Assembly: GCA_946699065.1 (NCBI GenBank)
Contig: CAMPDV010000149.1
Span: 558,001 to 622,000 of the forward strand
Length of the DNA stretch: 64,000 nt
Direction: 5' to 3'
DNA from: Loxodes magnus
Taxonomy: Eukaryota > Ciliophora > Karyorelictea > Loxodida > Loxodidae
Below, in pieces: positions 12,051 to 51,586 of the stretch (within the stretch, counting starts at the first letter, position 1; every line of letters begins with the position of its first letter). A model generated the notes under the pieces. That model made no database searches and was not told the DNA's origin. It worked only from the letters and a program-made list of their open reading frames with translations. A program made the translations under genes and the position numbers.

Positions 12051-13508
12051 ATGCTATCCAGAATTGCTTAAAGAGTTTTAATTTATTCAACTCCACTTGA
12101 AGTATTTTAGTTTAAGAATGGAATAATTGCAAACTAATCTAATAAAGTATAACCAAATACTAATAGATAGTATTCTACTTATACGAATTCCCCGCTAAAA
12201 ATGAATTTTTCTACCAATTAGAAAAAACCTTTCAATGAATTTGAGTCGATGTCTTCTTAGGAAAGTGAATTAAAGGAGTTTTAGCAAGTTAAGAACTTGC
12301 TAGTTAGAGAAATTGCTGCTGATGTCATTTAAAATTCGATTAAAGTAGCTGCTTTTTATTTCAGTCAGAGCTAGGCAATCATGGCAGAATTGATGAAAGC
12401 AGCAATTGATGTTCTAAATCATCAAATTATGTGATTTGCTAACAAATGAGCAATGTAGTCTCCAGATGAATTTCATAATTACGGCTATGGGAAATACAAA
12501 AATTTAGCTGTCTTGATTCCTGGAGTAGCTTTTATAGGATCTGGATGCTATAACGCTGTTTATCCAATAATATAATAATTGCATTTATCAATTCATGCAG
12601 AAAGCAGTGATTAAATTGTTAGTGCAATGGCGTTAGGTTTAGTAGGATTAGCAGGCTTTGGTGAGATTTATCTTTTCTGTAAAAATATGGGAAACCTTGA
12701 TGATAAACTAGTAAACTTGTGGTGGTTCAAGTAATTTAAGAAAAGATTTCAAACTGCATATTTAATAGGCATTGGTAAAGAAAGAATAGATCCAGTTGCA
12801 GATGCTATAATAAAGGAAAATATTTTGTCTATGATTAGTATTGGAATTCCTATTTTTTCTGTGTCAATCTGCTTCTTTACTAATTTAATGTGAGTCGATT
12901 AACTTGGTGAATTCACTTCAGGTTTGCTGCAAATTTATTTTGGATTTACAATTTTGCAGGAAAATACTAAGATTCTAATCGGACAATCAGTAGAAAGAAA
13001 GGAACGAGAAGATTTGCTTAAAATAATAAAGTCTTTGAATGAAATAGAAGATGTTGAAAGGTTGAAAACTTATCATCTTGATTAAGATAGAATTAAAATT
13101 TCAGTCTCAGCAAAATACAATTCACAAGAAATAGCTGATAATATAGAAGATGTTTTAGTAAAAGAAATCTAATAGATTGCTAAAACCAAGGCGTAAGAAG
13201 CAGCTATACGACAGTTAGTGCGTTAGACAAGTAAAATAGCGATAACTCATTTCACTGAAATCAATCTAGCTATAGAGGATCATATAAAAAAATAGTTTGG
13301 TAACAGAGTATTCGATATAGACATAGAGATGAGTAAATTGAATATTTTAGATAAATATAGAGGAATTGTGACTATAACAGAATCCGAAAGTGATGGAGAA
13401 CCCCTTGATTTAATTGACGTACATAATGCATAAACTAAAGCCATAAAAGAATAATCAGAGCAGAAAGCTGTTGAGAAAGTAGAAACCAGTTAGAATGATT
13501 TAAAATGA
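12051..13508 (+). CDS. SLC30A9: ZnT9-like cation diffusion facilitator (SLC30A9 family)
   Basis: A 485-residue, intronless member of the cation-efflux family closest to ZnT9/SLC30A9, which in animals acts as a mitochondrial zinc exporter. The N terminus (MLSRIAQRVLIYST) is basic and hydroxylated like a mitochondrial presequence. The family signature region is IMAELMKAAIDVLNHQ, then AMQSPDEFHNYGYGKYK, followed by several membrane spans and a C-terminal cytosolic/matrix domain. Three in-frame UGA codons (12432, 12447, 12891) must be read through, as Trp, and the stop is UGA at 13506-13508. The usual His-xxx-Asp metal site in the second span reads Lys116-xxx-Asp120, and a usual Glu-Asp in the fifth span reads Glu-Asn, so transport chemistry may differ or be lost. 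The stop lies 34 nt from the end of the convergent Dsc3-like gene. Confidence 0.88.
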
Positions 13509-13542
13509 GAAATATATAAATTTTTAAGTTAAGTAATTAAAA

Positions 13543-14388
13543 TCACGAAAGAACTACATTTAGAATTATAATTATTGAAATAATCGAGAGAGAAATTCCA
13601 AGCAGCATACCTTTTTTCTTATATGAATTATAGTTAGCACAGCATATCTAAATAATTGATTACCAAAAAAATAGTCACTATAGATAACACATATCCTAAA
13701 AGACAACCTATTAAAAAATCTTTGCTTGGGGCTTCAGTTCTGAGCTATTGAGCCTCAGGTAGCTCATGGTTCTAATTATTTTATCCTTAGTTAAAGTTTA
13801 TTTCTCGTGCATTGCTTGGAGTATTATTTCCATCTATTCATTCCTATTCTCTTTAATATCTTTCTGTATCTGAAGCATAATTCTAACCTGCATGGAATTA
13901 AGCTCTCATCATTTCTATTTCTTCCAATGAAAAACCTGAATTTACGAGTTAATCAAATCCTTTTGGCAAAGATTTTTTCATCTATAGTTTAAAATATTTA
14001 CAGCAGAAGCATTTTATTGCCTTTTATCTTTTATTCTGCCATGCATACAAATACCATCCTCAAGACCATCTAAATTAGATGTGAACTTACTTAAAGTTTT
14101 AAGTGGAATATTATCTTCCATAAATTTGCCCATATAAATTAACTAACATTCTATTCCTTCTTTAATTTCATTTGCGAATACTTTTTGCTTAATTTCATAA
14201 ATTGTGTCTTTTTCAAGATTTGCCCTTCCAGTTCGAACCTACCCATTTGCAAATCTTATTTCAATATTGGATAAATCCTGAATTTGATCTTTATGATCTG
14301 CTTAAGTTACATCAGGATTTGTTGCTAAATCCAAGTTAACTTCATGTTTAAGCTCTATTTGTTTAGCTTGACTCTCTTGCTTATTCAT
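13543..14388 (-). CDS. Dsc3-like ubiquitin-domain membrane protein of an E3 complex
   Basis: A 269-residue protein after removal of two introns. An N-terminal ubiquitin-like fold (IEIRFANGQVRTGRA ... IYMGKFMEDN ... DGICMHGRI) is followed by a region like the DUF2407/Dsc3 C-terminal domain (KGFDQLVNSGFSLEEIEMMR ... EQEWID) and two hydrophobic segments separated by a basic loop (SYKKKGMLLG). In fungi, Dsc3 is a subunit of the Golgi/endosomal Dsc ubiquitin ligase; TMUB/HERP proteins in ERAD share the layout. Intron 1 is 20 nt (13982-14001). Intron 2 is 16 nt (13648-13663), and its removal both creates the second span and brings UGA 13543-13545 into frame. The Trp of EWID, conserved in the family, is encoded by UGA. 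Whether a whole Dsc complex exists in this organism cannot be judged here. Confidence 0.82.
13648..13663 (-). other. 16-nt intron of the Dsc3-like gene
   Basis: GTAATCAATTATTTAG on the minus strand. Splicing extends the frame through a second transmembrane segment to a UGA 34 nt before the stop of the convergent gene. Without splicing, the frame would run far into that gene. Confidence 0.8.
13982..14001 (-). other. 20-nt intron of the Dsc3-like gene
   Basis: GTAAATATTTTAAACTATAG on the minus strand, phase 0. It joins the ubiquitin-like domain to the conserved GFDQL/GFSLEEI region, which lies in a different frame. Confidence 0.88.
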
Positions 14389-17343: not shown

Positions 17344-18228
17344 ATGAAAGTATTAGATGACAAATAGAGAACTTCTTATTATAATCTTACTTTATAAAGT
17401 ACATAAAGCTTCATAGACTTAGTAGGTGAATAATCTTTTTGCAAAGTTGATAAATCAGAACCTTTAGACCTTTCCTTGCTTCTATCAATTCTAGTTTGAA
17501 TTTTATTTTGACTAAATTCCTTTTTATATTATACTGGCAACTTTACCTTTTATACTTTGATTATTTGACTATTTATGTATGCTTTCTATCTATTTGACTC
17601 AGGAGTTGACAAGGTAAATAATTTCCTTTTAAACATTTAAAGAACAACATAGTTTGCTAAGTATTTGAAAAGGTTGTATCCTTAAAAGCCTATTATAGCT
17701 TGAAAAATAAGATCATTTCACTATGCATAAAAGAAACAGAAAAAGAACAAAAAATACAACCCATTTATTACTAATTGCCAGCATACTAAGTTTTACTTCT
17801 CAGAAGTATAAGATACTTCAGATCCTTTCTAATATGATTTTATTAAGGATGTTATGAAAGTTCAGATAATTGTTTAGGTAGTTTGCTCTGATAAAAAAAC
17901 TCAAAATTTATACACTAAGAAGAAAAAAGAATTCATTCTTGCAAATAAGACAGATTAAAAGCTTAAATTTAAAGAAAAAATCACAATTCCATCTATCAAT
18001 AAGTATATATTAGCAGTCAATGATAATACAAGAATTCCTTTTTGAATTAATATAGGAGTCTATTGGTTCTTGACAATACTTGCATGTTCATGATTTTATA
18101 GAAAGTTGCTTAATAATAATAGTGGAAAATATACATATGTTATTTAGAAAAAAATAACTAGAGAAGAGGATTTTATTTCAGGAATTACATCCTATATTGA
18201 GCCCAAAAAAAGTCCAAAGTTTATTTGA
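17344..18228 (+). CDS. TMEM151-like multi-pass membrane protein
   Basis: A 294-residue intronless protein from ATG 17344 to UGA 18226-18228. Two adjacent hydrophobic segments near residues 45-85 (SLLLSILVWILFWLNSFLYY and FYTLIIWLFMYAFYLF) are followed by KPIIAWKIRSFHYAQKK, which fits the Trp/His/Tyr motif of the TMEM151 family. Later come RIPFWINIGVYWFLTILACS and FYRKLL, a further pair of spans. Six UGA codons are read as Trp, including the Trp of AWKIRSFHY. The stop was chosen because sequence quality falls to random A/T text after it; the frame itself would continue if that UGA were also Trp. The molecular role of TMEM151 proteins is not established. Related ciliate proteins are expanded families. 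Confidence 0.75.
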
Positions 18229-21200: not shown

Positions 21201-21540
21201 ATTTTATTATATTCATTCAAAAGCAGCAAGATAACTTAACTTAATCTAATGAATTTCGCATAATTTGAAAGAATTTTTCAAATTATTCTATTTTAAAGAA
21301 CATTAACGTTGCAAATCTTAAAAGAAAGGGTTTAGACTAAAAGTTATAGACTTAGCATTAACTCATTTAAAAAGTTACTTATTTAAAATAATAATCATTT
21401 TATAATATTATACTTTTCTCATTTTAGAGTAGTTAAATATTAAAGTTTTAATAAACTATAAAGATTAAATAAAAACTGACTCCTTAATTAATTATGTAGG
21501 ATTAAGTTTTACAAACTAAAAAATAAGGATTAAAATATAA
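18229..21540. other. AT-rich region without genes
   Basis: It contains long A/T words and no convincing frame. One oddity is a short GC-richer island near 20195-20235 that includes an 11-nt match, with one mismatch, to a Pol III A box (TAACCAAGTGG). No partner B box at the right distance or tRNA fold was found. Confidence 0.5.
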
Positions 21541-21549
21541 AGAACATTA

Positions 21550-25598: not shown

Positions 25599-27615
25599 TC
25601 AATACTGTTCTTTGTCGATCGAAAGTAGTAAAGTGTCCATTTTTTCTATTTCTAACTAAGCTGGATTTTTCTGTTCACCTTCCTCTGCTGGAGGAGCTGG
25701 TTTTTTCCTTAAATTTGGACTCAATTTAAAATAAGTAACTCCTCCTCGATCATCTCCTACTATAATGGAAGGCATTGTTGGGTTGAAAACTATATGTGTA
25801 AGTTTTGCTCTTTCAGATGCTTTAGGGTTACAAAAGACTAAATTTAAATAGATTAAACTTACATTCATGCTTTTCTACACTAAGATCATATACAGGAACT
25901 ACTCTATTAGCAGTCACACAGGCAAAAACTGTTGAACTATAAGGGGCCCAGGCAACGTCTCCAACTGGAGCTTCTTAGTCAAATGTCATTATTGGATTTT
26001 TTATAGTATGATCCCAAATTTTTACAGTCCAATCTGCACTGCAACTTATAAAAATCTTAGGATGAAAACTATTCCATTTTACAGTATAAACAGCCATTTA
26101 ATGACCTTCATATGTTTCCAAATATTAACCTGAATAAGCCTTACTACATTTATGAATTCTTCCTTCTTCTGTTCCAACAATAAATAAGTGTTCTTAATGA
26201 CGATTAAAATCAAAACACATGCCTCCAGCTAAGCCTACAAGGGATGTTTCTTCCTCTTGTTCTCCTTCTTTACCAGAAACAAGTTTTAATTTCATAACTT
26301 CTTCTGGTTCAAGTTTGTTTTTCATCAAAATCCAATTTGTTACTCTACCATCTGAACTAATAGAATAAAAATTTAAATTTTTAGCAATATCTTCATCTTA
26401 CCAATAAACTTGCCAAACAGGATCAGTGTGTTTATTTGTTCTAACAGTAGATTAATATATGGGTCTATTATGTTTATTTCTCACATCATATACTAAAACT
26501 GTGCCATCATAAAGTCCAATCGCTAAAAGTGAAGCCCTTTGGGGATGCCAGTTCAGGCACATTACTCCAGATTCTGTTGTAAACGAATATTCTGGGAAGT
26601 TAGTATTTTTTAAGCTATAACAGCACACAAGACCCGTACCCGTTCCTTTCATAAAATCATAATAACCATATCCAACCGCAAATAAATCGTGATATCTTGG
26701 ATTCCAAGACAAAGCTGTAACATGTTTTTTTCTTGATCTTTCAGAAACAAATCTCCATAAAGGAAGTAAGCTTCCTTTGTTCGGTACAAACTCATCGCTT
26801 TTATCTTCATAGTATTTATTATCTGCATATGCATCATCCTCAATTAATAAATTTACCATTCTTTCCATCAATTTTAAGTTTTATTTCATTTCAAAAGAAT
26901 AAAGAGTATCTTCTTGCTTTCTTGAAGCTTTCTTCTCTTTAAGTTCTTAAGCATTTTCTCTTTCTTCTTTTTTCATCTCTTCGCTATAAGTATCAAAAAT
27001 ATCTCATTAAGTCACGATTTCACTAAAAGTTCTCATTGGAGGAGGAGCAGTTGAAACTCCTCTCTCTTTTATTGCGTTGTTAATAGTTTAAGCCATTCTC
27101 TCAGAATAGTTAAATTAATTTCTCAATGATTTTCTTAAAAGTTTTTCATCGATTTTTTAAGTGAAATCTCCTTCAACTTAGCTAGCCTTAATAGCCATGT
27201 CAGCTTCAAGTTTTTTGTTATCCTTATACTCTTGTTAATCTTTTTCTTCTTAAGAATCTTTTTGCAGTTGATACCCATCAACAGAAAAATGAACTATCAT
27301 TTAATCTACTTGCTCATCCTTTTTGTAAATTCTTTCTCTAAAATGGAAATTAGCTATATTAAAAGGAGCTTATGGATTTCTATCTACCAAAAATCTTTAG
27401 GGCATTTCTTCTTCGAGTTCTTTTTCTGTCCACTCTTTCTCAAAACCTTCAGCGGCTAGCTTTAATCCTTAAACATTCTCCATTCCTATATTTGATTCTG
27501 CAAATTCCGATTCTTCTTCTCTTAGTCTTTCTTTTCTATCTTCTTCTTATTTTGAGCGTCCTTAATCTTTAGCAACTTATTTAGAAGTACCTCTTCCTTT
27601 TTTTCCTTTAAGCAT
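25599..27615 (-). CDS. DNAI1: Axonemal outer-arm dynein intermediate chain 1
   Basis: The WD-repeat intermediate chain (IC1/DNAI1) that tethers outer-arm dynein to axonemal doublets. The spliced product is 663 residues, close to the family's about 700. The N-terminal Lys/Glu-rich region contains the family block [19 protein letters not shown] followed by [12 protein letters not shown] and [13 protein letters not shown]. The WD-repeat half then has [53 protein letters not shown] and [21 protein letters not shown] 25-nt intron (25838-25862, donor GTAAGT) lies between KHEF and FCNPKAS. The Trp of TQWDIF, conserved in the family, is UGA (27004-27006), whereas nearly all other Trp codons are TGG. 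The stop is UGA at 25599-25601. The start at 27615 precedes a basic MLKGKKGRG stretch typical of the family. Confidence 0.96.
25838..25862 (-). other. 25-nt intron of DNAI1
   Basis: GTAAGT...TTTAG on the minus strand, phase 1. It connects the last WD repeats ([12 protein letters not shown]) with the C-terminal [10 protein letters not shown] block, which lies in another frame. Confidence 0.9.
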
Positions 27616-28527: not shown

Positions 28528-29067
28528 TCAAGAGATTTCTATTTTAGCTTCTTCTTCTCCCTATTATTATTATTATTATTAAACTTCTTCGTTTTCTGCT
28601 TATTTTTTGTTTTTAACATTTTTACCTTCTGATTCCAATATTATAGTGACAGGACCATCATTAACAATAGTAACATTCATATATTCTCCGAAAGCTCCTG
28701 TTTAGATTTTATCAGGCTAGTATTTCTTTTTTAACATTTCAACAAGTGAATTAAACATTATTTTAGCTTCTTCATTGTTTAAGGCTTTATGAAAATCAGG
28801 TTTGTTTCCTTTCAAAAAAGCTTATAAAGTAAACTAGCTTACGATAAGTACTTCATAATTACGCATTACGCAAGATTCATTCCAAGCTTTTTCCCCAGTG
28901 GGCCATAGTCTTGTATTAAGTATTTTATTACAAGCCCATTCTAAATCCTTTTTCTAATCAGTTCTTTCTATTCCACATAATACTACTAACCCATACCCGA
29001 TACTTCCAACTACTTAGCCTTAGACAGTAACCTGTCCACTTATGACCCTTTAAAGTACTAAGCGCAT
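28528..29067 (-). CDS. DTD1: D-aminoacyl-tRNA deacylase
   Basis: This enzyme hydrolyses D-amino acids (and glycine mischarged on tRNA-Ala) from tRNA, a chiral proofreading step in the cytosol. The product has 179 residues and no intron. It starts MRLVLQRVISGQVTV, followed by GSIGYGLVVLCGI and LWPTGEKAWNES. It carries both family motifs: SQFTL in EVLIVSQFTL, and the Gly-cisPro loop motif in NDGPVTIILES. The catalytic fold ends near residue 150. An extra C-terminal tail is Lys/Glu-rich with a seven-residue Gln tract written entirely with UAA and UAG. The Trp codons read are TGG. The stop is UGA at 28528-28530. Confidence 0.95.
28561..28582 (-). repeat. TAA trinucleotide repeat encoding polyglutamine
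   Basis: Six TAA triplets and a TAG on the minus strand lie in frame inside the C-terminal tail of the DTD gene, so they encode seven Gln. Under the standard code this would be a run of stop codons. The tract is a microsatellite and may vary in length between alleles. Confidence 0.85.
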
Positions 29068-29425: not shown

Positions 29426-30630
29426 TCATATTAAGCTAGTTTGTAAAAGATAAAAAGGAATAATGGAATATATTAAGCTAATATCTATAAAAGTAAGCAG
29501 TAGAGGACTATTAAGATTTAATATTAAACAATAAAGTTAAGTTACTTGATTTTCCTTCAAAAGATTTTATAATTCATTATTAATATTTTCTTTTAATTCG
29601 TTATCGCTTTTATTTACATGGGAATTTATATTGCTATATAAGCTCTGTTTGGTATCTTCCTGCTATTCGAAACTTATATGACGTTCTTGTACATTTTCAT
29701 TTTTTTAGACTACTTTAGAATTAACTGAGGTATTATCAGAATGCGCCTAAGCTTGATTAATATCAGGTGAGGATTCATTTTTGTTTTTTTAGAAATTGTG
29801 TATATTCCTACCTGTTGTCAAATCATCTTAATTAGGAATATCACTAGATCCATAACCTTTTTATTCCCATACTTAAGTTTAATCAGGTTGCACTTACTGC
29901 ATTTTCAGTCCTTTTTTTTCCCTTTTCTTTAAAATATATTCATAAGTAGTCATTTTATTTCATCTTAAGAATATATGAAGTCCAATAAGCTAAGTATCAA
30001 GGATTCAAAAAATGCCTGATTGAGCTGTAACAATAAGGATCAAAACATCACGAACAGTTGGTTTAATTTCATGGCATAGTAAGTTAATTCCAATAATAGT
30101 TTAAAGGATAACATGAAAATTCAACGTATATATCAAATAAAGAAAATCTCTATAATTTGCTCTTCCAACACAGTTATTGAGTCACTTGCAATGATGATCA
30201 AAAACGTCAACGCATCTATTACAGGAACCGCAGTGTTTACTTTTGTCATAAACATGAGTGTCACATATAGTACAAATTTAATTATACTCCTAAGTATCAA
30301 ATTCGTAACTGTTAATTATAAAACTTACTTGTTTTGCCTGCAATATCTTTCTTTATAAACAGTAGGGTCTGTTGGATCACATTTAGTGCATGTAAAAGCT
30401 TTTCATATAACTAAAATAGTTAATGCAGAGTAAAAAGTAGAAACTATTATAATACTTGGTACTTAGTCAAGCTTTGGAACAAAAATTGCATAAAAGATGA
30501 TTAAGTCAAAAGGAAATACAAATCAAGAAATTATTTATAAAGGATGAAACGGAGTGGAAAATCCATTCTTCTTTACTGGCCTTAATTTATCTTCATCAAT
30601 TTCTTATTTTTACTAAATTTTAATTTCCAT
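29426..30630 (-). CDS. DHHC palmitoyltransferase
   Basis: An integral-membrane protein S-acyltransferase. Spliced, it has about 394 residues. Two N-terminal spans (FPFDLIIFYAIFVPKL and SIIIVSTFYSALTILVI) precede the Cys-rich domain CTICDTHVYDKSKHCGSC-NRC and the active-site DHHCKWLNNCVG. Two more spans (RDFLYLIYTLNFHVILQTI and VLILIVTAQSGIFWILDT) and the TTYEY (TTxE) motif follow, then a long polar Asn/Ser/Lys tail. The invariant Trp after DHHC is a UGA codon (30182-30184). A 20-nt intron (30309-30328, donor GTAAGT) precedes the Cys-rich domain. The start is ATG at 30630. The stop at 29426-29428 is the first in-frame UGA after the tail, but the last about 40 codons are random-looking, so the 3' end is uncertain. 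The substrate is unknown. Confidence 0.92.
30309..30328 (-). other. 20-nt intron of the DHHC gene
   Basis: GTAAGTTTTATAATTAACAG on the minus strand, phase 2. It joins YCRQN to YEFDTQEYNQICTIC and restores the DHHC frame. Confidence 0.9.
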
Positions 30631-31670: not shown

Positions 31671-34600
31671 TCATTTTAATTTTAGTAATATACATATAAA
31701 GTAACTATTCAATTTTAAAGAATTGATTAGAAAATATTAAAAAATAACTTAAGGATTAATGGAATCTTTCTTTTCTATATCCTTTTCAATGAAGTAGCAG
31801 TCCATATACTTCTAAAGTGGTTTTGACTAATTGTTAGTTCTTTACTATATTTCAATTTTTTGATTCAAAGTAAATTTAAAATTGCACTTGCTATTATTGG
31901 CTAATTTGTCTCTAACTTAAACACTGATGTTTATCGCTGATGGTTTTCCATTACTTTCCATTTTATTTGCTATTACTACGCTAGGACCATAAATATCATA
32001 TCTTACTATATTACTTCCACTTATTCCTCCTATAATATCTCCCATATGAATGCCAATTCTCATTTGAAGTTCGCATCCTTGTTCTAGGTTAACTTACTAA
32101 ATTGCATCTATTAGACTAAACCCAAAATTAATAACGTTTAAAAGTTCAATATTACAATCTCTCTTCTATTTTTCAATAGTTCCATTATAGCCTATCGCCA
32201 CGTAGCAGTCTCCTATTGTACAAACTTTATAGCAGTAATTTTCAGCACAAAGCTTATCAAACTTAGAAAAAAGCTATGATAAAACTTAAATTACAGACTT
32301 AGGAGACCTGCTACTAGAGAAATTAGTGAATCCAACAATGTCTGCGAACATTATTGATATATCTTCTAGTTCTTCTGCTACAATCTCTCCCTATTTCATT
32401 TATTATAAAACATGGAGAGGCATTAAGTGCGTTAACAAATCTTCAGTTTTCTAAATTTCTTAGTTTGCGAGATCTTATACTTAAAAGGCATTTATTTCAT
32501 TGTACTCTCCTGTGAAAACAATGTATAGGAGAAGGTTAACGCATGAAATGGTAATTTCTACTTGAAGGAAGTAGTATTTGATCATATGGTCCTTAATTTA
32601 ATATTTGAAGTATATACAATTGTAAGTAAGAACTATAATGAAAATTATTAAGATATGCCTAAACATAAATCCTGTATGGAAAGCTATTAAAATCAAATAG
32701 AAGCAGCATATGTACCCAATTTCTATCATTATTAAGTCTATAAAGAGAGTGTTTGATACATAAGATATTACGTAAAGCAATAAAGTCAAATAAATTATTA
32801 TCTTATTTAATTTTCTCATTCTCATTATAATTATAAAATAAGTTATATGCAATATAATTGCAACGCTCTGTATAATAATTTCAATTCAATAGTCTTTAGT
32901 TTAAAATTTCTTATTTAGCCATCACAAGATAAATAAAACAACCTGGAAAAAAAAGCTAAAAATTATGCCAATGTAAGTAGCTTTATATTAGTTTTCGAAT
33001 TTCATCTCAAAATATTCTTATTTTTTCTATTCGATATTTCAATATTTGAAAGGCCTAAAAAGAAGGTTAAAAAACTTTTTGATTTTTAATTTTAAAGATT
33101 TTTATTATGTTTTTTAAGATAATATTTCCTTAATTATTGTTTCTACTGAAACTGTTGAGAATTTGCCGAATTTTTATGTTGAAGATGAAGTTGATTTTTG
33201 AATTACCTAACTCATCCTTCTACTTAATTATTTCATGCTTGATCTTAGAGGAGATTGAACTTAAGATATATTATTAATTTTTTATTATAGTTGCTAGCTT
33301 TATTTATCTTTGCTGGTTATCATGGATTAATCAATAGTTTCGTCATTTATTTGTTATTCTAACAAATTTTCTTAATCTAACTTCTTTAATATCATACTAG
33401 AAGTTTTAAAATCTTTCTCAATTATTTATTTTTATTAGTTCTATTATATTCTTTACAGTTCCTGTTAACAAGTTTAGTTATTTTTCTTTAACATAAGAAT
33501 AGTAGGAAAAAGAGTTTTAGAGATGCTTTTTTATCTAATATTTATTTTACTATTCAATATGTTAAGGAACTTACTTTACTCACTGTTTTTGATATTTGTA
33601 GCATTATAATTCTGAGTTTATGTTGTTTATCAGTCTGTTTCTTATTTTTAATTTTAGAAAGAAATTTCATCTTTCGACAGCATTCTTGCTATCCTGAATT
33701 TATTTACTAGAGCCTATTAAATACTATTATTCTAATAAATTTGCGAAAGCTTCTATGGTTAATCAAGAATTAAGGAGCTTAGATCTTCATATTAAATACT
33801 TTAATTTTGATAAGGTATTTTATTTATGTTATTGCTAGCATTATCAGTGCTTTAAGTCTTATTGCTGCCTATTACTTCGTTCTTTAACTTATGCTGATTA
33901 CTAAGTAGTTAATTTATCTGAAATCTCTTTATAAGACTGTTTTTTATCGCTTGATTGGTCATCAGATTTTAAGATAAATTTTAAATAACTTAAATCTGTG
34001 GTTATTTGATACTAATAGCTTTAGAAAAATTAGAAAATGTATTAGCTTTCATTTTGTCACTTTCTTAGTTTTTGTTATTAATTTAGAGCTTTTTATCTCT
34101 AATATAAAAGATTTTATCGTTTTATTTTTCGTTTATTATCTTTCTTTCTTCTTATTCGTAAATGTTTTCGCTTTTTTTGGCCATTTTTTATTCGAATTAA
34201 TCATTTTCTGATTTGCTTGAAGAATTAGAAGGTGATTCACTTTCGGAACTTCTCTAAGAGGAGACTGAAGAACTTTAGATATCAATTTCTTAAATTTACT
34301 TGCTTGACTAAATAACCTAATTAGTAGCTTTTGACATTTTTTAATGTTCTGATATTTTATATTTCTATTCTTCTGTATTCTATTGATTTTTTGCTGTTTA
34401 TAATGCTAAAAATTGACTTGAATCTCTGAAAGAAGCTCTTCTCTATGATGTTTATGGATTAATTATTTTATTAGCAAAGCTTTGGTTGCTTTTATCGACA
34501 TATAAGAAAAACTATTTCCTTTGCTATTCTTTTTGTTTTACAATGTAAGTTTTCATTGTTCCCTTTCCTTTTATATCTAAAATTTCTTCTATAAACTCAA

Positions 34601-37600
34601 TTGAATATAGATGATAAGCTTCTTCGTAAGTAGTGTTAGATATTCTTATGCAATTTGGGTTTTTTACATTACTGCACATTCTACTTGCTGTATTAACAGA
34701 GTCTCCTACTAATGCAAATTAAGGTTTATGATCCCCAACTACTCCTGCAATTACAGGACCAGTATGAATTCCAACTTTAACTTATAAATTTGTTCCATTC
34801 TTTAATGTAATTGACTTGGCATTCTAAATCATGTCAAGGGCTAGCAGTATTGATCTTTGGGCATGGTTTTGTTTCATTTCGGATTCTTAAAAATTATTGT
34901 AATTTAAACCAGCACAAGCCATATAAGTCTTACCAACAGTCTCTATCTTATCTACTTTGTGTATTTCACATAATCTATCAAAAGATAATTGAATTGAATT
35001 AATTAGCTCGATAAATTCTTTTGACTGATACTGCAAAACAATATCATCAAAATTGTAAATATCACAGAATATTACTGACACTTCTTTATGCTCATCTGCA
35101 ATAAGTTTATTCCCCTTCTTTATTCGCTACATAATGAAATCAGGAAACAAATTGGATAATATTTCATGTGATTAAGCAATTGAATTTTGAATTATTTCTT
35201 AAGAAGCGAATCAGTTTCTGTTAGTTTTATCAGCATCAATCAAAGTCCTGGCTAATATTAAAAAGATGATTAAAGAAGCAAAATTCCTTAGTAATTAATA
35301 GTACAAAAAGCTATCATGAATGTAATCTTCGAAAAAATCAAACTCTACTAAAATTTGCCATCCAAACTCTCCAATTTGCTGAAGTAGAATCAAAATAAAT
35401 TAGATTACGCAAATTTCGAAAATATGCATTTTAATTCCAAGCATCTAAAATATCAAATTATATAATATATGCTACAGCCCTCCAAAGAAAGATATTAGCG
35501 TAGAAGCTAAAGCACATAATATTAACTTTAAGATAATAAACAATTTCCTCAAAATTTTAACATCTTTAAAGAAGCATCGTACTATAAGAATCAATATGGA
35601 AAAACTAAGATATATCAAGCTAATTAGGAATTGATTATCATATAAGTGCTTAAAGCTTGGTAGAAATACTATAACCAAAATTAGAAAATTAAAAGCAAAT
35701 ATAAGTACGTCTGAGATATTCCAAGTTTTAGAAGCTAGAAAACTAAGATATTTTTATTCCAGGAGAGGATCTTTGAATACTCTTTTATATTTATAAGTTA
35801 AGTATTAAGAGTCTGTTGCTATTAGAATCAATTACTTTTGATTTTTGTGATCTATAAGATCTCTATAACGATTTTTATATCTGTTTAAACGATAATTAAG
35901 AGGTTATAAGCTGTAATTAAGTTTCTAGTTTCATAGTTCTTTTTTTTATATCTCTAGTAAAATCTAAAATAGGTTCGGATATCAAAACTTTCTGAAATTT
36001 CATATTAAAGATGTAACCAAATTAAATCCAAAAATAAGGATAGTGATAAATATAAATTAAGGCTTCTTAGCAAACATAAAGTTTATGTTATTATTGTTAT
36101 AAAGAAATTTTAGGATAATTTGTATTACTTGCAGCATTGGAAATAATGCCAAGGCTAGAAAAATTAGAAGAACTAAAAGAGCACTGCTTCATCTGTGTGC
36201 TGTTCTTAGAATTTTCATTCATACGTTGATAATTGTGTTGATATATAGAATTGAGATCACTTCATCATAAGTTCAATCTACTTCTTAATTATAAAAAAAC
36301 ATCACTGCTAACAAAAATATGAAAAAGCCATTCAATGATGCTCTCAAAAACAACTTTAACAAGCCTCAGAATTTAAAAGCATTATGTTTTATGTTTGCTG
36401 AGTAAGTTTAAGGAAAGTATAAGATTGTATTAGGCATTAATTTTTGTTCGAATACTCCATAAATTAGAATAGATAATCCTTAAAACAGGAAAATATATAA
36501 ACCATAGTAAACAACTCCATAGATCATATTACTAAAGGCAGAGATAAACTAATAACAAAATAGAGGAATCAAACTAATTACAAATGAATATACTAATAAT
36601 TTTGCTGATTTATGTAATCTGTAATAAGAATAAGTTCCATGTAGCAATATAAGCTTCCCCAGCACGCTAAACTTAGGAATTATGATATCAGACATTATTA
36701 GGTTGGATAAATTTTTGTTTTTATTAAGAAAGATACCTACATCAGCCTTTTTGCACATCTTTAAATCACTACTTCCTGAACCTATACATAGAACTTTAGG
36801 CTTAAATGAATATTTTTCTTGTATAAGCTGAGTAAGTTTTTCCTTAGTTTGTGGCGTAGCATCTGATAGAATAACTGATTAACAAATGAAAGAAAGCATA
36901 ATGAACAATTAGACAGAGCTCTGGTTTTAAAATATTAGATCGAAAGAATATGCATCTATCAAAAGACACAATTATAGATTTTCTTTCACTCCATTGTTCA
37001 TCATATTACTTATATTATTTTTAATTGTTGAAAATTACATTTTTTCTTTACTCTAGATATCAAGTGAATTTAAGGGTTTATTTTAGGGAGATAATTTTAG
37101 TCTATAGCTTTATAATATTCCTTAGTTGCTGATGCTATTTTATTTTTAAGTGTTTTGCCTTTCAACTTGTTCTTGCTAATTTATATTCTAGTTTTGCTCT
37201 GCTAAAAATCCAGGAGATAGTATAAAACTTTAGCTTTAGGATGAAAGTGAATCTTAAGAATTCATTTAATTATTGCGCCTTTGAAATAAAGTTCCTTTGT
37301 TTTTAAGAGCTTAAGATAAAACGGTCTGTGACTTTTTTAAAAGATCGAAAGATTGAATAACATTGGTAATTGCTGGCTAAATATGATTTTAATTAAATTA
37401 AAATGAGTTTTAAGATTCTAGTAATTCTTTTGACATGAAAGTTTGAGATTTGATAGGTTATGATTATTCTTAATTATTCTTTAGTACATAATATTCTATC
37501 AAGTGAATTAATTATCACTTAATCTCTTCTGATTACTTTCCTTTTAGAATTTCAAGTATTTGCACGTTTTTATTGATTAGTTAAGAATTATATGCAGTGT

Positions 37601-39842
37601 TCAAAGCTATCTAAGAGTCTTCGCTACAGGTCAATCATAATCTTATATCTGTCTTTTTTATTTGATCTATTGTTTATTTTATTTAAATGTCTATATCTTC
37701 TTCCATGGCAATGACTCCTTCAAAGTGTAGATCATGCTCTATCCACTCAACGAGTTCCTGTAGTCTTTGATATTAATGCTAAATGGCTTCTTTTGATATA
37801 ACATACATTTTCTAAAAATGCTAAAGCTCTTTGCTGCTTAAATATTTGCTGGCATAGCAGATGTTCTAACAACCTTTTTAATAGAAGCTTTCAATCCTTT
37901 CTTAAATACTTAAATTGAAATCCTTACAAATTTTCGAAATGGATTAGACGCTTCCTTTGCTAATTAAAATAGCTTTATCCTTCACCTTGAAATTTTCGGC
38001 ATTATTAATAAATTATTAAGTTTCTCCCTAGGTTTAAAAGCATTTGATAGCTTCAAAAGTATCTTCATCTACTTCTTAAACAATAATAGACATTCTTTTT
38101 CTCTCTTCAGTGAATTCGTTTATTGCAATGATCTAAAAGTATTGATATTCTCCTAAAACTTTTATTTTGCATATATCAAAATCATTATATTTAAGCTTAA
38201 ATCCAAACTTTTTTACTGTTTATATTATAGCTAACTCTTCAGATTGAGTTTCATTATAAAAATTTTCTGTGCTTTTTGTAAAAAGGAGAGTGTGACAGAT
38301 TGTCATGAATATAAAGAATTTTTGCATCTTTTTGTTTGTTTTTAAATCTTGCTTAATAATTAGCTCCAAAAAATCTGTCTTTTAAGGAGATTCTCAAAAT
38401 GAAGTAATAGTTTTTTCTATAGCTGGAAATACTTTTTATGTTTTAGATTTATGCTTCAAAGCCTCAGCATCCACTAAAAACTAGTTATTTTACTCAACGG
38501 CAGAAAATTAGCTTTTAGAATCTTCAAAAATTTAACTTTAAGAAGTGAATCTTAAATGGCTTGCTTATTTGTATACTTTGTCTTAGAAAACACAACCTTT
38601 GAATTTCATTGAGTTAGAAGTGATTAGAGCAGATCTATCTATCAGTGCATATTCTATTTTCCCCAAATCTTCTAAAACATTGGTGTTGTTTATTTTAGTG
38701 ATTTTTGTTTTGTTACCTTCTTTCATGAGATGGAGATCTTCATCAAGAGTGATTTATTTCTTAAAGAAAATTTTAAGAATATCGTATATAAAATACAAAG
38801 TAATAGGAAACATATTAAAATACTTCCTTAAGAACTGAAAGAACTCCATTGGATTTCTCATAGAATTGTCTGTAAAATATTTTTCGGTTTTTTTATTAGT
38901 GTCACATCATATTATCATCAGCATGAAACTTAAAGCTGCGAAAAATAGGTTTAAAATTATAGCAAATAGAGTTATCTTATTCAAATGCTTCTCAATGATT
39001 CCTTTCTTAACTTCCTTTCTTATGTTGTAAAGTATTTTAGTATCCTTTCCTGTAAAAACTGAAAGTCCAATTATTCAATCTGTATTTCTTAGAATTTGTT
39101 CTCTGAAAATAAAGTTTGACTAGGTGATTTGGATTAAATTTGGAAAGCCTTGGATTTTAAAAGATCCACTCAAGTTAATATTTTCATTAATGTCATTAAT
39201 CTTAATTACTGAATTATTAAGCTTTTAGAGATTTATTTCAAAAGATTCTCCTTCTTATTAAAATATTAGAGACTATGCATGTGAAACTGCATTTCCAATT
39301 TTTATTTTATTCAATCCATAATAAAGTTAAGAATCAATAAAGCATTATCCTAAATCTGAAGTAGCTAAAATAATCATATCACAAGGAGACTACTCATCAA
39401 TCTAGAGGCAAACAAACTAGCCAACTTAGATATCTTTCCATTTAACTTGCTTTAGCTAATTATTCAGAAATATGTTAGTATTCTAGTTATTTATTCGATC
39501 AATATATTTTTTTTGCTAAGTATAGCTATTTATATCCATTACTAGATGAACAAAGCTTGAAGAAATCAAACAGAAAATGCAAAGTATCAAAGATTCATAA
39601 ATTTAATTAGAAATAGCGCTGCTGATCATATTGATTAGAACAATCATTAAAACTCAAATGTTTCCTAACCTCGAAAGTTAAAAAAGTAGATTTTTAATAA
39701 CTAACTAGTAAAATCTATGATGTTTAAGTTCATTGGATATGTACACATTTTAAGTACTCAATTTATCATCAATAACTATTGCCCTGCTTCTAAAGTCTTT
39801 GGTTTACATTGTACTAGCCTGCTTATTAAACTTCTATGACAT
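31671..39842 (-). CDS. Guanylyl cyclase fused to a P4-ATPase-like domain
   Basis: A single 8.2-kb open frame encodes about 2,723 residues, with every segment I checked in phase and no intron. Residues ~1-1350 resemble a P4-type ATPase with spans at both ends, and ~1350-2723 have the mammalian adenylyl-cyclase layout: spans, cyclase domain, linker, spans, cyclase domain. This fusion is known from ciliates and apicomplexans, where it makes cGMP. In the first cyclase domain I see VIFCDIYNFDD (~1594), KIETVGKTYMA (Glu1634, guanine-type) and LVGDSVNTASRM (~1715). In the second I see MFADIVGFTNFS (~2496) and HMGDIIGG (~2598). The metal-binding Asp pair and the Asn/Arg transition-state residues thus sit in different domains, in the inverted order described for ciliate enzymes. 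The ATPase half has lost its hallmarks: DKTGT reads DRSAL (Asp402), GDGxND reads GSGSSD (~1021-1026), and DGETN reads YYGLN (~175). The start at 39842 is tentative; the stop is UGA 31671-31673. Confidence 0.93.
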
Positions 39843-43633: not shown

Positions 43634-44323
43634 ATGGGTTTGTCTTAGAAAGAAGAAAGTCTTACATAAGTAGAAAATAACTTTAGTTATATTTAATAAA
43701 TTAATTAATCAGCAGAAACAAAAGAAGCTTTAATAGCTTTTATTACCTTAAGATATATTAATAGCTATTGTAAAATAAAAAAGAAGTTTAATTTCCTAAT
43801 TCACTTATATAAGAATAAATACTCTAAATCACTAAATTTTATAAATTTAATACATTTGGCTTTAGGTAGAAGAAATAAACAGCTTATTTTAAAAAATTGA
43901 ATAAACTACTATGTTTACTTATATAAGCATTAGATAACTTATTAATATGCTTTTGGTTTGATAAATAAATAATCATTGATATGAACATTAGATGCTTTAG
44001 AATATTTCAAATTTTAAGTGTTAGCTTTAGTTTAGCTCATTGAACTATTTTCAATTATTTAGATTTTAAGAGTAAATTTTTAAATTTCTAAAGCTTACAA
44101 AAATAAGGATATTATATTAATATTTATAGAAAATGCTTTACCAAAAGGAGTTTCTATCCCTTTATCATTACAAAAAGCATTTTTTTATTTTAAATTTGCT
44201 ATTTAGAATTTATTTACTTCATAGATTCTTTTACCTCAATACTAAATAAGAGTGAATGCAATTTATCTAGAGTTATGTTGATAACTGGGTAATGATGTAT
44301 TTATAAATAATAAAAGAGAATGA
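43634..44323 (+). CDS. Open frame of uncertain reality
   Basis: 229 codons from ATG (MGLSQKEESLTQVENNFSY) to UGA 44321-44323, with stretches such as SAETKEALIAFITLRYIN and NALPKGVSIPLSLQKAF that look more protein-like than random text. The base composition, however, is as AT-rich as intergenic DNA, and with a single stop codon frames of this length can occur by chance. It precedes the coiled-coil gene on the same strand by 65 nt. No domain is recognised. Confidence 0.3.
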
Positions 44324-44388
44324 AAGGATTAATAAATAAGAAGGGAAAGTAGGAAAATAGTAATTAAATTTAGTAAAATAAATTATTA

Positions 44389-47340: not shown

Positions 47341-48941
47341 AAATTAGTCAAATAAACTAAAGGAAATTTTTATCTCTTTATCAACATTAAACTATTAAGA
47401 TACGTATTATGAAATCATTAATCAATTAGTGGCTATATGATAATGAAAGTTGGTTAAATAGAATTGAATATTAAAAGACATATTCATTAACTAAGCATTT
47501 AATTATCTTTATAAATTATATCATTAAATCAGTATTTAGTTCCTAAATCTTAAGTTCAATCACTATACAATTTTTTGCAATTTCTTATTTTGAGGATTCT
47601 TCCTTTAACTTTTAAATGCCTTTTAACCTTTATAACTTAAAGCTATATTACTTTTGATTAATAAGCATATAATATCTTAATATATAGTAAGCAATCTAAA
47701 TTAAGTAAATGCTTTATTTAGACAAAGATAAATCAATAAGTTCCTCTTAATATATGGTTATTATTTTAAATTTAAATTAGTAAAAATTAGATGTTTTCCC
47801 TTATGTGCTTAAAATAAATAATAAACCTTAAAAATCTTTACATTTAATTATATAGTCTACCTTATAAATAAGAAACTTAATTCAAATTATATGAATAACC
47901 AGCCAAGCTTCTCTTAGCAGAATCTAAATAATGTATAAGCAATGTGAAATAAAATAATATAGGTACTATTTGCTAGCACTAATAGCTATGCTTTATGTTT
48001 AAATAGCAAATTTTATTATTTCTACCATTTGTTATTATTTACTAGTGCCTATACATTTAATTTATATCATTCAAAATTAATCCTCTTCTAATAGGAGTCT
48101 TATATACTAGAAAAGTACTAACACATGAAAATAATTGCATATATAATAAGTAGATCTAACAAATGAAATAATTTTATATGAAATTAACTCTTTAAATACT
48201 CTTATCTTATGAGTATATGCTATATAGCTACTAGATATGATTATTATTATTAAACTAGCCTTAAATATAAAATTATTGATTTCCATTGAAACTTCTAATT
48301 ATATTATTTACATCCTATCTATTTAAAGGCTTAAGCATTAATACTTATTTAATTGAGAAATACATTTTAAAGTTAAGCTTATAAGACTATACATTTATTT
48401 CTTTATTAATAAATTAGATGCATTTAATTCAACTTAATGCTACTATTTAGAACTTGCCTAGGCTAATTAATTTAATTAGCAAGGACTTTTACTCTTTAAT
48501 AAAGTTTAATATAGGAATGAAAGAAAATAAAAAACTACGAAAGGCTAAAGAAGCAAGATTAGTGAGTTGTAAGTTTCTAAAGCATATTAATAACCTATAT
48601 GGAATGTGGTAAAAAGATATTAAATCATATTAAAGTATTAATCTTTTAATTTGCTTAAATCTTATTTTTAAAAGAATATTAGAATGCTAAGAGAATACAT
48701 AAGTGTTTAAAATAACGTCTTAATTCTTTATCTTCAATCTAGGCATTGTCTCTGCTTGATGAGAAAGAGATTAGTTACTTTTACTTCTCATAATAATTAA
48801 TAAAATTAAAAAAGAAAGGAAAAGCTAGCTTTTATTAAATTGAAACAGTAAAGAAACAAAAGACGATAAAAGATTAAGTTTATTTAGAAAGTAAGGAAGC
48901 TTTATTTAAGTTGTATATTTATTATATTTAAAAAATTTAAA
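47341..48941. other. Intergenic AT-rich region
   Basis: About 1.6 kb between two rightward genes. It should contain the promoter of the ubiquitin-like gene. A short frame at 47890-47946 (MNNQPSFSQQNLNNVQAM) is too small to call. No repeat or RNA gene was seen. Confidence 0.55.
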
Positions 48942-49247
48942 ATGGACATGAATTAACTAAAAGGTGGCCCTTCTTTCGAGGAGGAAGCCCAGGCAGTGAA
49001 AGGAGCTGAAATCGGACTTATTTTTTAACTCCCAGACTCCTCAACCTTCCCTCTTAAATTCACTAAAGGAGTAGACGTAAATTGGCTGAGATACTAAGTA
49101 GCTACTTATTTAAATGTCCCATTAGAAACATTGGAGCTAGAACTACAAGGAAAGAAAATGTTAGGTCCTTTAAGTTTAGAAGATTATCCTACAATATAGA
49201 ATGGAACTGTAATAGATGTAATTTTCAACGAGGATGAAGAATAGTGA
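48942..49247 (+). CDS. Small ubiquitin-like protein
   Basis: A 101-residue intronless protein (MDMNQLKGGPSFEEEAQAVK...) that looks like a free-standing ubiquitin-type beta-grasp domain. A strand (LIFQLPDSSTFPLKF) precedes a helix region (VNWLRYQVATYLNVPLETLE), then LELQGKKMLGPLSLEDYPTI and a final strand (NGTVIDVIF) before an acidic EDEEQ tail. That is the order and spacing of a Ubl, but the C terminus has no Gly-Gly, so it is not an obvious conjugated modifier. The local GC content is much higher than its flanks, which supports coding. The end is UAG-UGA: Gln, then stop at 49245-49247. The partner is unknown. Confidence 0.78.
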
Positions 49248-51028
49248 CCTTTTAACTTAACTTTTATGCTTAAAATCAAATTTATGTTTCATTAACTTAA
49301 CTTATTAATACTAAATAAGTTAAAAAGTTTATAATAGTTGTTTTCTCCTTCATATAATAAAAACTTTATATTGTAAATAAAAGCAAAAATTAAAAAATTA
49401 AATGTCTAAATCAATTGAAAAAGTAAAAAGCATGAATAAAAGACAATTAAAAGATATAGTTAACAATAAATAGATAAAATAATCTTGAGTCTAACTATTT
49501 CAATATACTAAAATAAATCCTTTTACTTTCTATCTTAAAACAAGTTTTCATTTTATTTGATAGCTTATATCTTTATAAATCTTACTGAAAATTGTATTAT
49601 TTAGAATCTAGTTATTGGATTTTATTTTTGATGTTTATTTATGTAGAAGCATTGTAAAACCTATTGAGAAAGCTAATTTATTTAAGTATAATTATCTATT
49701 ATAGAATGAGTATTTATTTTATATACACTCATTTATTTTCAATTTTTATTAAATTAAATTAACATTTTAAAAGGAAGTTTTAAGGTTCTAGATAAAATGG
49801 AGAATCTGACTGAAAATTAAGTTTTTTAATTAAAATAAATAATAAAATAACTACTTAAAAAAGGATAATTTTTACTTTTGTAAGCATAGTGCTAATCTAA
49901 CTGCTGCTATGATATTTAGATTTATTTAAATAATTTTAAATATTTTCCTTTCTTCCTTATATTAATTGCCCTTGTCAATGGCCAAAGCTGCTTAATTTAC
50001 TTCATTATATAATTAAAAGGATTCTTCTTTTCTCAATCAGATTAGAGTTATCCTACTAATTTGAAAATACTGTAAATAAAATAATAAACTAGTAAAATTT
50101 AGAATAGAGGAGATTTGAATGCTAAGAATAAAAGCAGGCTAATTAGGTAACTAGTAAATAAAAGATGTATTGAGACTATTAATAAACCTTAGATATTATA
50201 TAATAACTTATCTCTATTTACATTTTTATATTTTAAATTTCCTTATTTTTAACTAAACCATCCTTTCTATGATAAGCTTAAGAACTTATTTTTCTAGTAG
50301 AAGATTTATAAGCTTGAATAGATTTATCTAATTATAAGTTAATTTAAAAATATAAGTGATAATAATATCTGATTTATTGATTAGCCAGGGAGTAATAAAT
50401 GAGGTTTATAGTTAATTGTCAACTAGAAATAAAATATTAATTAATTCTTCTTATTAACTTTAAAAGTTATTAGACTCTGTCTACAATCAATTGTAATCTA
50501 TAATACCTAGTAAACTTTAATTATAATAGAATAAGATAAATAAACCTAATTAGCTAGTTGTAACCTATCATTTCTTTAAGTGAAGCAAAAATTATAGACT
50601 AAAGCTTTTAAAAGTCTTAATTATTAAATTATTTAAGCAAGTAAAGGAATATAGCTTTGTAATTTTCGTATATTTAAGACTTAGATAAATAGTATAAATC
50701 GGTTAACTGATCTTATCTAACTTGCTTTAATTTTAAATAAAAGAATAAACTTATCTTAAAGATAATCTATAACGCTTTTTATAAACTTTTAATTAAAATC
50801 TTATACTCTTGCTAGGCAAATAATAAGATAAATGTATACAGTTATTTTTTAAGTTTAATGGACATACTTAGTTGAAGTATAAGCTAGAGCTATCTCCATA
50901 AAGTTAGAAGACGGTTTCTTACTAGAAGATGTTGCAAAGCATTGCTAAGTTTTAAATAAGATAGATAAATTAAAAGTATTAATTTAGAAAGAAAGTCTTA
51001 TGAATATATTAATTCTTTTAAATATAAA
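49248..51028. other. Intergenic AT-rich region
   Basis: About 1.8 kb between two rightward genes, with the ARL6 promoter presumably at its right end. A 28-codon frame at 49402-49488 (MSKSIEKVKSMNKRQLKD...) has a plausible start context but is too short to support. Nothing else is recognised. Confidence 0.55.
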
Positions 51029-51586
51029 ATGGGAAAAGGTGGGTCTAAACTAAAAAGAAATATAATAATAGTGGGACTTGATGGAAGTGGAAAATCTACC
51101 ATTATTAATTTTTTTAAACCTAAAAAGGTGACTCTTTAATATAGCAATCAGTTCTTGAAGTTGTACCTACAGTCGGTTATCAAGTTGAAGGTTTCACAAA
51201 GAAAAAAATTCAATTTACTGTGTTTGATATGAGTGGAGATGGAAGATACAGATCAATATGGGAACGATATTATACTGAAGCATAAGTACTCATCTATGCA
51301 GGCTATAATTTTTGTAATAGACTCGACTGACACGACAAGATTTGCAATAGCTAAAAATGAACTTGAACTGCTTTTAAAGCACAAGGATATTCAAATAAAA
51401 AGTATCCCTATACTTTTTTATGCCAACAAAATGGACTTACCAGAAGCCAAGAATCCAGTTGAAATAATGAAAGCAATGCAACTTGATTAAGTTGTTAATA
51501 AAAGCTGACATATTACTGCAAGTAATGCTTTGACAGGACAAGGACTTGAAGAAGGTTTTAATTGGCTTTCTGATTAGATTAGATGA
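51029..51586 (+). CDS. ARL6: ARF-like GTPase ARL6/BBS3
   Basis: An ARF-family GTPase of the ARL6 type, which recruits the BBSome to membranes for ciliary cargo traffic. Spliced, it has 174 residues. MGKGGSKLKR has Gly2, so N-myristoylation is possible. The P loop is GLDGSGKS, switch I lies around VVPTVGY, switch II is FDMSGDGRYRSIWERYY, and the guanine motif is ANKMD. Matches to ARL6 include FTVFDMSG, QAIIFVIDSTD and WHITASNALTGQGLEEG. Two introns, 17 nt (51128-51144) and 16 nt (51286-51301), are required. The Trp of KSWHITAS is UGA (51506-51508); the stop is UGA 51584-51586. The usual switch II Gln (DxxGQ) is Asp here, which predicts altered GTP hydrolysis. The linker after the P loop is shorter than in animal ARL6. 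Confidence 0.95.
51128..51144 (+). other. 17-nt intron of ARL6
   Basis: GTGACTCTTTAATATAG. It joins NFFKPKK to QSVLEVVPTVGY in frame. Confidence 0.88.
51286..51301 (+). other. 16-nt intron of ARL6
   Basis: GTACTCATCTATGCAG. It joins WERYYTEAQ to AIIFVIDSTD, matching the uninterrupted family sequence exactly. Confidence 0.95.

Follow-up and report, generated by a model that had tools for sequence, protein, structure and literature searches.

Genes and open frames of the window

The window, by which we mean the whole 64,000-nucleotide stretch of DNA analysed, carries nine homology-picked gene models and two further coding segments. CCT3 (TCP-1 gamma; positions 7529-9166, + strand) is a single exon of 545 codons with four UGG codons and a UGA stop at 9164-9166. 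It matches Pfam Cpn60_TCP1 at 508.6 bits, its PDB alignment with TCP-1 gamma reaches residue 527, and a further in-frame UGA is present at codon +4 after the stop. A cation-efflux (ZnT-like) gene on the same strand (12201-13508; Pfam Cation_efflux, 84.7 bits over residues 37-260 of 435) contains sense UGAs at 12432, 12447 and 12891 and ends at a UGA (13506-13508) backed by coding signal, without C-terminal homology. It converges on a Dsc3-like gene (13543-14388, − strand; UGA stop 13545-13543), the two stops being separated by 34 nt. The latter combines a ubiquitin-like N-terminus with Dsc3_C, which scores 51.7 bits in the unspliced frame (profile 1-118 of 145) and 59.7 bits (1-141) once two inferred introns, one of 20 nt at 14001-13982 and one of 16 nt at 13663-13648, are removed.

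Four genes lie between 25599 and 39800, all on the − strand. The DNAI1 homologue (25599-27615, the 5' start being putative) has 11 UGG codons, one sense UGA, an inferred intron of 25 nt (25862-25838) and a UGA stop at 25601-25599; it aligns with PDB 6zyw_D (dynein intermediate chain 2) at 690 bits, Trp opposite Trp, and the match to DNAI1 in 9fqr extends to residue 656 of 663. A D-Tyr-tRNA deacylase (DTD; 28528-29067; Pfam Tyr_Deacylase, 163 bits; PDB 2okv and 3knf) ends at UGA 28530-28528. The DHHC palmitoyltransferase (29426-30630) scores 92.4 bits against Pfam DHHC once its inferred 20-nt intron (30328-30309) is spliced; it was aligned with 120 homologues, the best-scoring relative being 41% identical, and has sense UGAs whose first bases are 30525, 30405, 30184, 30007 and 29962. 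The largest gene, P4-ATPase-like with two guanylate cyclase domains (31671-39800, where 39800 is an in-frame coordinate only), runs in a single frame without frameshift, with 18 internal UGA and five UGG codons. Its Pfam domains are two Guanylate_cyc, PhoLip_ATPase_C and Cation_ATPase, and several PDB-matched stretches lie between residues 6 and 2669.

ARL6 (51029-51586, + strand) has two inferred introns, one of 17 nt at 51128-51144 and one of 16 nt at 51286-51301. Spliced, it scores 166.3 bits against Arf and aligns with PDB 6vbv (195.5 bits, residues 7-173 of 174) without gaps over both splice junctions. A region of LNR (Notch) repeats (1000-2118, − strand; Pfam LNR, 116.4 bits in six stretches) shows eight UGA and no UGG in the 322 codons counted; on a by-eye reading its gene may continue in another frame to a tandem UGA UGA at 428-423. 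The two further segments are U1 (4043-5989, − strand; 649 codons, seven UGA, two UGG), which joins codon-bias segments in one frame and for which a family search gave nothing convincing, and a ubiquitin-like C-terminus (48921-49247, + strand) ending at UGA 49245-49247. The Pfam ubiquitin match of the latter is weak, its 17.6 bits falling short of the 25.4 cut-off, and stops 5-6 residues before that UGA. Rfam gave no match in the window, and ARAGORN no tRNA.

Under the standard code no frame in the window is open for 200 codons, and a Blepharisma-type code, with UAA and UAG as stops, was rejected on the same count. With UGA as the sole stop, 113 frames are open for that length; since UGA is rare in AT-rich DNA, many of these would arise by chance, and open frames alone are little proof. 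A preliminary description of this DNA was confined to 12051-51586, a range that omits CCT3 as well as the LNR region, rich in UGA, at about 2118-1000, and nothing special was found at position 12051.

Internal UGA codons and tryptophan

Four UGA codons had been named as Trp in the preliminary description, with positions that prove right: all are in frame on the coding strand, at 30184-30182 (−) in the DHHCxW motif of the DHHC gene, 27006-27004 (−) in TQWDIF of DNAI1, 51506-51508 (+) in KSWHITAS of ARL6 and 13840-13838 (−) in EWID of the Dsc3-like gene. The nine models together hold 37 UGA and 28 UGG in 5,633 codons, counting DHHC to codon 357, the cyclase gene to 2689 and LNR to 322; UGA makes up 0.66% of codons in this small, homology-picked sample, in which one gene dominates.

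We scored the possible assignments over 18 UGA columns, each at least 60% occupied, among 120 DHHC and 30 P4-ATPase relatives (30 of 60 collected proteins). Trp reaches 28.5 bits, followed by Tyr (2.7), Phe (0.0) and Ile (−8.8); Cys, the Euplotes meaning of UGA, falls outside the five best assignments and was rejected. Trp is the top residue in six of the 18 columns, the other 12 being variable or favouring other residues. The Trp columns include two in DHHC, with W 1.00 after rounding in one (n=120) and W 0.80 in the other (n=104 of 120), and that of P4-ATPase residue 722 (W 1.00, n=30). Among the matches listed, the ARL6 UGA lies opposite Trp in 3/3 alignments (694 sequences matched) and the DNAI1 UGA in 2/2 (255 sequences matched). 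As a control, UGG lies opposite Trp at 15 of 20 positions in the best PDB matches of CCT3, DNAI1, DTD and ARL6. The 18-column score and the Trp-to-Trp alignments thus uphold the earlier reading of internal UGA as Trp.

Homology continues beyond internal UGAs in seven of the nine models (ARL6, DNAI1, DHHC, cyclase, ZnT, Dsc3 and LNR), CCT3 and DTD having no internal UGA, and this rules out a code in which UGA is stop only. It is scarcely credible that UGA is an ordinary stop here and that the internal codons reside in introns, pseudogenes or assembly errors. For ten of the 37 sense UGAs there is indeed an overlap with a potential GT-AG stretch, 3n in length and 15-27 nt long, two of these ten being conserved Trp, but the remaining 27 overlap none; moreover, 18 UGAs share one 2,709-codon frame and several fall at conserved Trp columns.

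Gene ends and the meanings of UAA, UAG and UGA

CCT3, DTD, DNAI1 and ARL6 had been described as terminating at UGA, and their stops indeed lie just beyond the family homology. The distance from the end of homology to the UGA is one codon in ARL6 (stop 51584-51586, 26 codons downstream of its sense UGA), seven in DNAI1, 10 in Dsc3, 18 in CCT3 and 10-28 in DTD. GC content drops at the end of six genes, the final 60 nt having 0.23-0.38 and the 60 nt that follow 0.13-0.20. In six genes no sense UGA occurs in the last 25 codons before the stop, which carries little information because only about one would be expected.

The proposal that UAA and UAG encode Gln is also backed by homology. In CCT3, DNAI1, DTD and ARL6 (best PDB match only, per gene, with DTD residues 152-169, the final 18 of its alignment, excluded), UAR lies opposite Gln at 19 of 45 positions, opposite Lys at six, Glu at four and Arg at three, and the column of DHHC codon 32 (UAA) is Q 1.00 (n=103 of 120). 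Gln columns are poorly conserved in general, since CAA/CAG in the same four PDB matches is opposite Gln at just 3 of 21 positions. A divergent P4-ATPase alignment, in which UAA scored best as Lys and UAG as Asn, was set aside as uninformative, its CAA/CAG control missing Gln as well.

Calling UGA "the only clear stop" is apt wording, given that two of the nine models, DHHC and cyclase, end without a convincing UGA. In both, coding signal gives out close to a UAA, well ahead of the next UGA. The candidate 3' ends are UGA 29428-29426 or UAA 29539-29537 for DHHC, and UGA 31673-31671 or UAA 31751-31749 or 31739-31737 for the cyclase gene. In DHHC, the 36 codons that begin with UAA-358 and lead up to the in-frame UGA have a noncoding-like coding score (0.1% of 1,058 coding windows are as low; 82% of 918 noncoding windows equal or exceed the tail), as do cyclase codons 2690-2709 (0 of 1,085 and 92% of 926, respectively), the test windows overlapping in both cases, so that the fractions are not independent p values. 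Short introns were rejected as an explanation of these ends: among the GT-AG introns of 15-45 nt enumerated (23 in DHHC, starting after codon 300; 12 in the cyclase gene, starting after codon 2630), the best spliced versions score 4.5 and −3.6, against 9.5 and 6.1 when stopping at UAA.

Such tails, which none of the enumerated introns improves upon, would suit a Condylostoma-type code (NCBI table 28), where some genes would also stop at UAA or UAG, a reading we regard as improbable. Passages of PMC11441545 state that UAA is depleted ahead of L. magnus stops and UAG is not, a difference that UAA termination, if true, would account for as well. However, all five genes with homology-supported ends terminate at UGA, and four of the six introns are longer than the 15-16 nt of heterotrichs. 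DTD carries seven UAA (12-17 and 24 codons before its stop) and one UAG within the 11-24 codons upstream; ten Glu-rich codons that resemble coding sequence follow the UAA run. UAA also lies 18 codons before the ZnT stop, and in both genes this departs from the depletion published for L. magnus, a point against the karyorelict reading. Because UAA is so common (225 in the 5,633 codons), one is expected near any gene boundary. We likewise think it unlikely that UAA is a minor, position-dependent terminator besides encoding Gln, with the DHHC and cyclase genes ending at UAA and the code lying between tables 27 and 28.

As for what separates the two meanings of UGA, the 10-mer AGATGAAATA is common to the ARL6 stop and a DHHC sense UGA. 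The +4 bases at the 37 sense UGAs (A 13, C 2, G 11, T 11) track those of codons in general (A.37, C.11, G.25, T.27). A short local motif was rejected on these two grounds, a subtle one being beyond the reach of 37 sense and six stop sites; nine or more bases are shared no more often than chance would give (by 1 of the 222 stop-sense pairs and 2 of the 666 sense-sense pairs). Since the 10-mer serves both meanings and sense UGAs lack a +4 preference, the sequence suggests that position, rather than a short motif, plausibly decides. Passages of PMC4967479 likewise describe the sense reading as the default and termination as occurring close to transcript ends.

Relation to known codes and uneven use of UGA

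The six putative GT-AG introns (16, 16, 17, 20, 20 and 25 nt) were inferred via frame, GT-AG and homology. Passages of PMC11441545 give L. magnus introns a mean of 19.3 and a mode of 17 nt, and heterotrich introns 15-16 nt, a figure not given there for Condylostoma itself; four of the six here measure 17-25 nt. Both the intron lengths and the GC of coding sequence and 3' flank resemble the L. magnus values in those passages, and a karyorelict is therefore favoured over a heterotrich such as Condylostoma. Together with the homology, these features bear out the karyorelict code (NCBI table 27) proposed in the preliminary description, a code that is itself already described. We consider it very probable, judging from the DNA, that this is nuclear DNA of a Loxodes-like karyorelict ciliate in which UAA and UAG encode Gln and UGA is Trp or stop. 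The two meanings of UGA come from homology here; the steps involving tRNA, eRF1 and poly(A) would be as in published work.

Table 27 organisms (Loxodes magnus, Parduczia sp.) share these codon meanings, homology-supported UGA ends, tiny introns (about 16-25 nt) and 3' flanks poor in GC. The present DNA differs in its uneven UGA use between genes and in the seven UAA just upstream of the DTD stop. UGA forms 0.120% of Parduczia codons in passages of PMC4967479, against 0.66% in our nine homology-picked models; no published UGA frequency for Loxodes was found in the literature passages searched. For Condylostoma magnum (table 28), the same passages report that all three stop codons are also sense and, as here, that no clear local motif separates the meanings; sense UGA here is about 15 times the 0.042% published there. 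In contrast to Condylostoma, the clear ends here are UGA only and introns reach 25 nt. The Blastocrithidia code is NCBI table 31. According to passages of PMC12153298, UGA is Trp there too and reassigned codons are unevenly spread between genes, but UAR is Glu and UAA is stop; the reassigned codons are avoided as a group in highly expressed genes, whereas here UGA, and not UAR, is clearly uneven.

In fact, UGA accounts for 2 of 22 Trp codons in four genes and 35 of 43 in the other five (Fisher p = 2e-8, with groups chosen after seeing the data). In a permutation test not so grouped, 0 of 20,000 permutations reach the observed unevenness (p = 5e-5) with nine models or with eleven, U1 and the ubiquitin-like end included, and p stays ≤ 6e-4 whichever of the eleven is omitted (5,000 permutations per omission). 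Neither of the controls, UAR/CAR (p = 0.09) or A/G-ending Lys+Glu (p = 0.08), shows significant unevenness, although neither is flat. These data hint that some genes avoid the ambiguous UGA and others use it freely. We give roughly even chances to a cost of dual-meaning UGA in translation, a premise added here, because of which UGA would be purged from some genes and would drift to the mutational level in others.

Instead of selection on expression, the differences could go back to how soluble and membrane proteins are synthesised, or to chance in so small a set of genes, for which we see a real but somewhat less than even prospect. Going by family knowledge, the five UGA-rich identified genes would all encode membrane proteins and the four UGA-poor ones soluble proteins; the gene sample is small, and the LNR repeats are not independent. 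Yet U1 is UGA-rich (7/9) with no obvious membrane segment by eye, the permutations and the omission of single models speak against chance, and the control codons are not significantly uneven.

With stop and sense UGAs in near-identical flanks, an 18-UGA gene and an internal control, the window offers a compact test bed: the fully reassigned UAR is used fairly evenly, and the two-meaning UGA strongly unevenly between genes. If this held genome-wide, what ambiguity (or near-cognate decoding) costs could be told apart from mere codon reassignment.

UGA as tryptophan and as stop

The preliminary description, in which UGA is both tryptophan and stop and UAA/UAG are glutamine, is correct, with good internal evidence; the code is the karyorelict type already described. 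Open frames of at least 200 codons number none in the window with UAA/UAG as stops and 113 with UGA as sole stop. Because the DNA is so AT-rich, many of the latter are chance, and the case for the code therefore rests on homology.

We find UGA at conserved tryptophans, as proposed, at coding-strand triplets 30184–30182 (DHHC), 27006–27004 (DNAI1) and 51506–51508 (ARL6), and at 13840–13838 in the EWID motif of the Dsc3-like protein. Among the alignments listed, the sense UGAs of ARL6 and DNAI1 align to Trp. Every amino acid was further scored at each UGA column of two family alignments, one of DHHC proteins (120 of 166 relatives) and one of P4-ATPases (30 relatives, 8 plus 22 of 52; the remaining 30, mostly other P-type ATPases, were excluded). 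Summed over 18 columns, Trp receives 28.5 bits, Tyr 2.7 and Phe 0.0. Trp is the top residue in six (DHHC codons 36 and 143; P4-ATPase residues 242, 298, 722 and 1204), and the other 12 are variable or favour other residues, as with P4-ATPase residue 49, where Tyr stands at 0.64 and Phe at 0.36.

The glutamine assignment is likewise supported: in four close alignments UAA/UAG lie opposite Gln in 19 of 45 cases (Lys 6, Glu 4, Arg 3), with controls placing UGG opposite Trp in 15/20 and CAA/CAG opposite Gln in only 3/21. One DHHC UAA column carries Gln in all 103 sequences present there, of 120. The P4-ATPase alignment is uninformative on UAR: UAA scores best as Lys and UAG as Asn, and its CAA/CAG control also fails to give Gln.

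CCT3, DTD, DNAI1 and ARL6 do terminate at UGA. Ahead of it, matches to homologues run as far as residue 527 of 545 in CCT3, 656 of 663 in DNAI1, 151 (3knf) or 169 (2okv) of 179 in DTD, 173 of 174 in ARL6 and, in Dsc3, 259 of 269. GC falls across the stop from 0.23–0.38 to 0.13–0.20 in six genes; one of them is ZnT, for whose C-terminus homology gives no support. CCT3 has a further in-frame UGA at codon +4. Between the convergent stops of ZnT and Dsc3 lie only 34 nt (13509–13542), and the 3′ UTRs of these genes must therefore be tiny or overlap in antisense. A tandem UGA UGA at 428–423 (minus strand) is a candidate tandem stop; by eye, the frame upstream apparently continues the LNR gene via a transmembrane-like segment.

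Gene models and introns

The genes recognized against Pfam and PDB encode CCT3, a cation-efflux protein (ZnT), the Dsc3-like protein, DNAI1 (dynein intermediate chain 2 of Tetrahymena, 6zyw, is its best PDB hit), D-Tyr-tRNA deacylase (DTD), a DHHC acyltransferase, ARL6, an LNR-repeat protein and, fused in a single frame (31671–39800, minus strand), a P4-ATPase-like protein with two guanylate cyclase domains. In the last, the phosphorylation-site region reads DRSALITSN, retaining the Asp; because this departs from the DKTGTLTxN consensus of relatives, catalytic degeneracy of the ATPase portion is possible, a condition also suspected in alveolate cyclases.

From frame and homology we infer six GT-AG introns, in ARL6 (17 and 16 nt), DNAI1 (25 nt), DHHC (20 nt) and Dsc3 (20 and 16 nt). 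Four of these are directly supported, by an ARL6 alignment without gaps across both junctions and by a Dsc3_C score that rises from 51.7 to 59.7 bits once the introns are removed.

The coding frame U1 (4043–5989, minus strand) has a CxxC/CxxC stretch with weak likeness to PDB 9e78 ‘DC6’ (E 0.056). CCHC zinc-knuckle-like stretches seen by eye (52600–52900, 56700–56900 and 63711–63923, all minus strand), with a weak zf-RVT match (19.6 bits, under cut-off), suggest mobile-element remnants.

Context of stop and sense codons

The +4 base at 37 sense UGAs tracks general composition, and AGATGAAATA is common to the ARL6 stop UGA and the DHHC sense UGA at 29962, beyond which the DHHC domain match runs 11 residues. 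A short flanking motif is therefore unlikely to decide UGA meaning. In the published model, as set out in PMC4967479, translation is the default and termination occurs close to the transcript end, aided by poly(A)-bound proteins. PMC11441545 reports UGA and UAA, not UAG, depleted in the last ~20 codons of L. magnus genes. Across six stops, sense UGAs within 25 codons upstream number zero (nearest 26, ARL6), with ~1 expected and hence no power. UAG occurs 3, 5, 11 and 19 codons ahead of stops, in agreement with that pattern. Contrary to the UAA depletion, however, UAA lies 12–17 and 24 codons ahead of the DTD stop and 18 ahead of that of ZnT; in DTD a (UAA)6-UAG run (28561–28581, minus strand), read as poly-Gln, occupies codons 11–17 ahead of the stop.

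Possible UAA gene ends and uneven UGA use

In DHHC, UAA at 29539–29537 is followed by 36 in-frame codons until UGA; in the cyclase gene, UAA at 31751–31749 or 31739–31737 is followed by 25 or 21. Both tails score noncoding-like, with equally low scores in 0.1% of 1,058 coding windows (DHHC) and 0/1,085 (cyclase, codons 2690–2709), and of the candidate GT-AG introns, 23 in DHHC and 12 in cyclase, not one outscores ending at UAA. Either these are odd tails or UAA occasionally terminates; with UAA at ~4% of codons, finding one nearby is in itself weak evidence, and DTD argues against UAA termination.

UGA use among Trp codons differs between genes: 0/4 in CCT3, 1/12 in DNAI1, 0/3 in DTD and 1/3 in ARL6, against 3/5 in ZnT, 1/1 in Dsc3, 5/6 in DHHC, 18/23 in cyclase and 8/8 in LNR, with 7/9 in U1 and 0/1 in a ubiquitin-like frame. 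Random reassignment of Trp codons to genes never reaches the observed unevenness in 20,000 permutations (p = 5e-5), whether for the nine models or for all eleven, and gives p ≤ 6e-4 with each of the eleven dropped in turn; under the same test other codon sets give 0.09 (UAR/CAR), 0.08 (A/G-ending Lys+Glu) and 0.15 (UAA/UAG). Against a rough neutral yardstick, the A-ending share of Lys+Glu (0.78), UGA-rich genes stand at 35/43 (0.81) and UGA-poor genes at 2/22 (0.09).

We read this as purging of ambiguous, near-cognate-decoded UGA from some genes, and our guess is that expression level drives it; membrane targeting, however, confounds the comparison, and the LNR repeats do not count as independent. 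The idea is not new, since highly expressed Blastocrithidia genes are reported, in PMC12153298, to avoid in-frame reassigned codons. Among the papers listed in our literature search, which did not extend to the 2022 Peer Community J. article of Seah et al. cited in PMC11441545, we found no report of UGA-only unevenness in karyorelicts. The gene-to-gene UGA imbalance and the candidate UAA gene ends are both leads for genome-scale tests.
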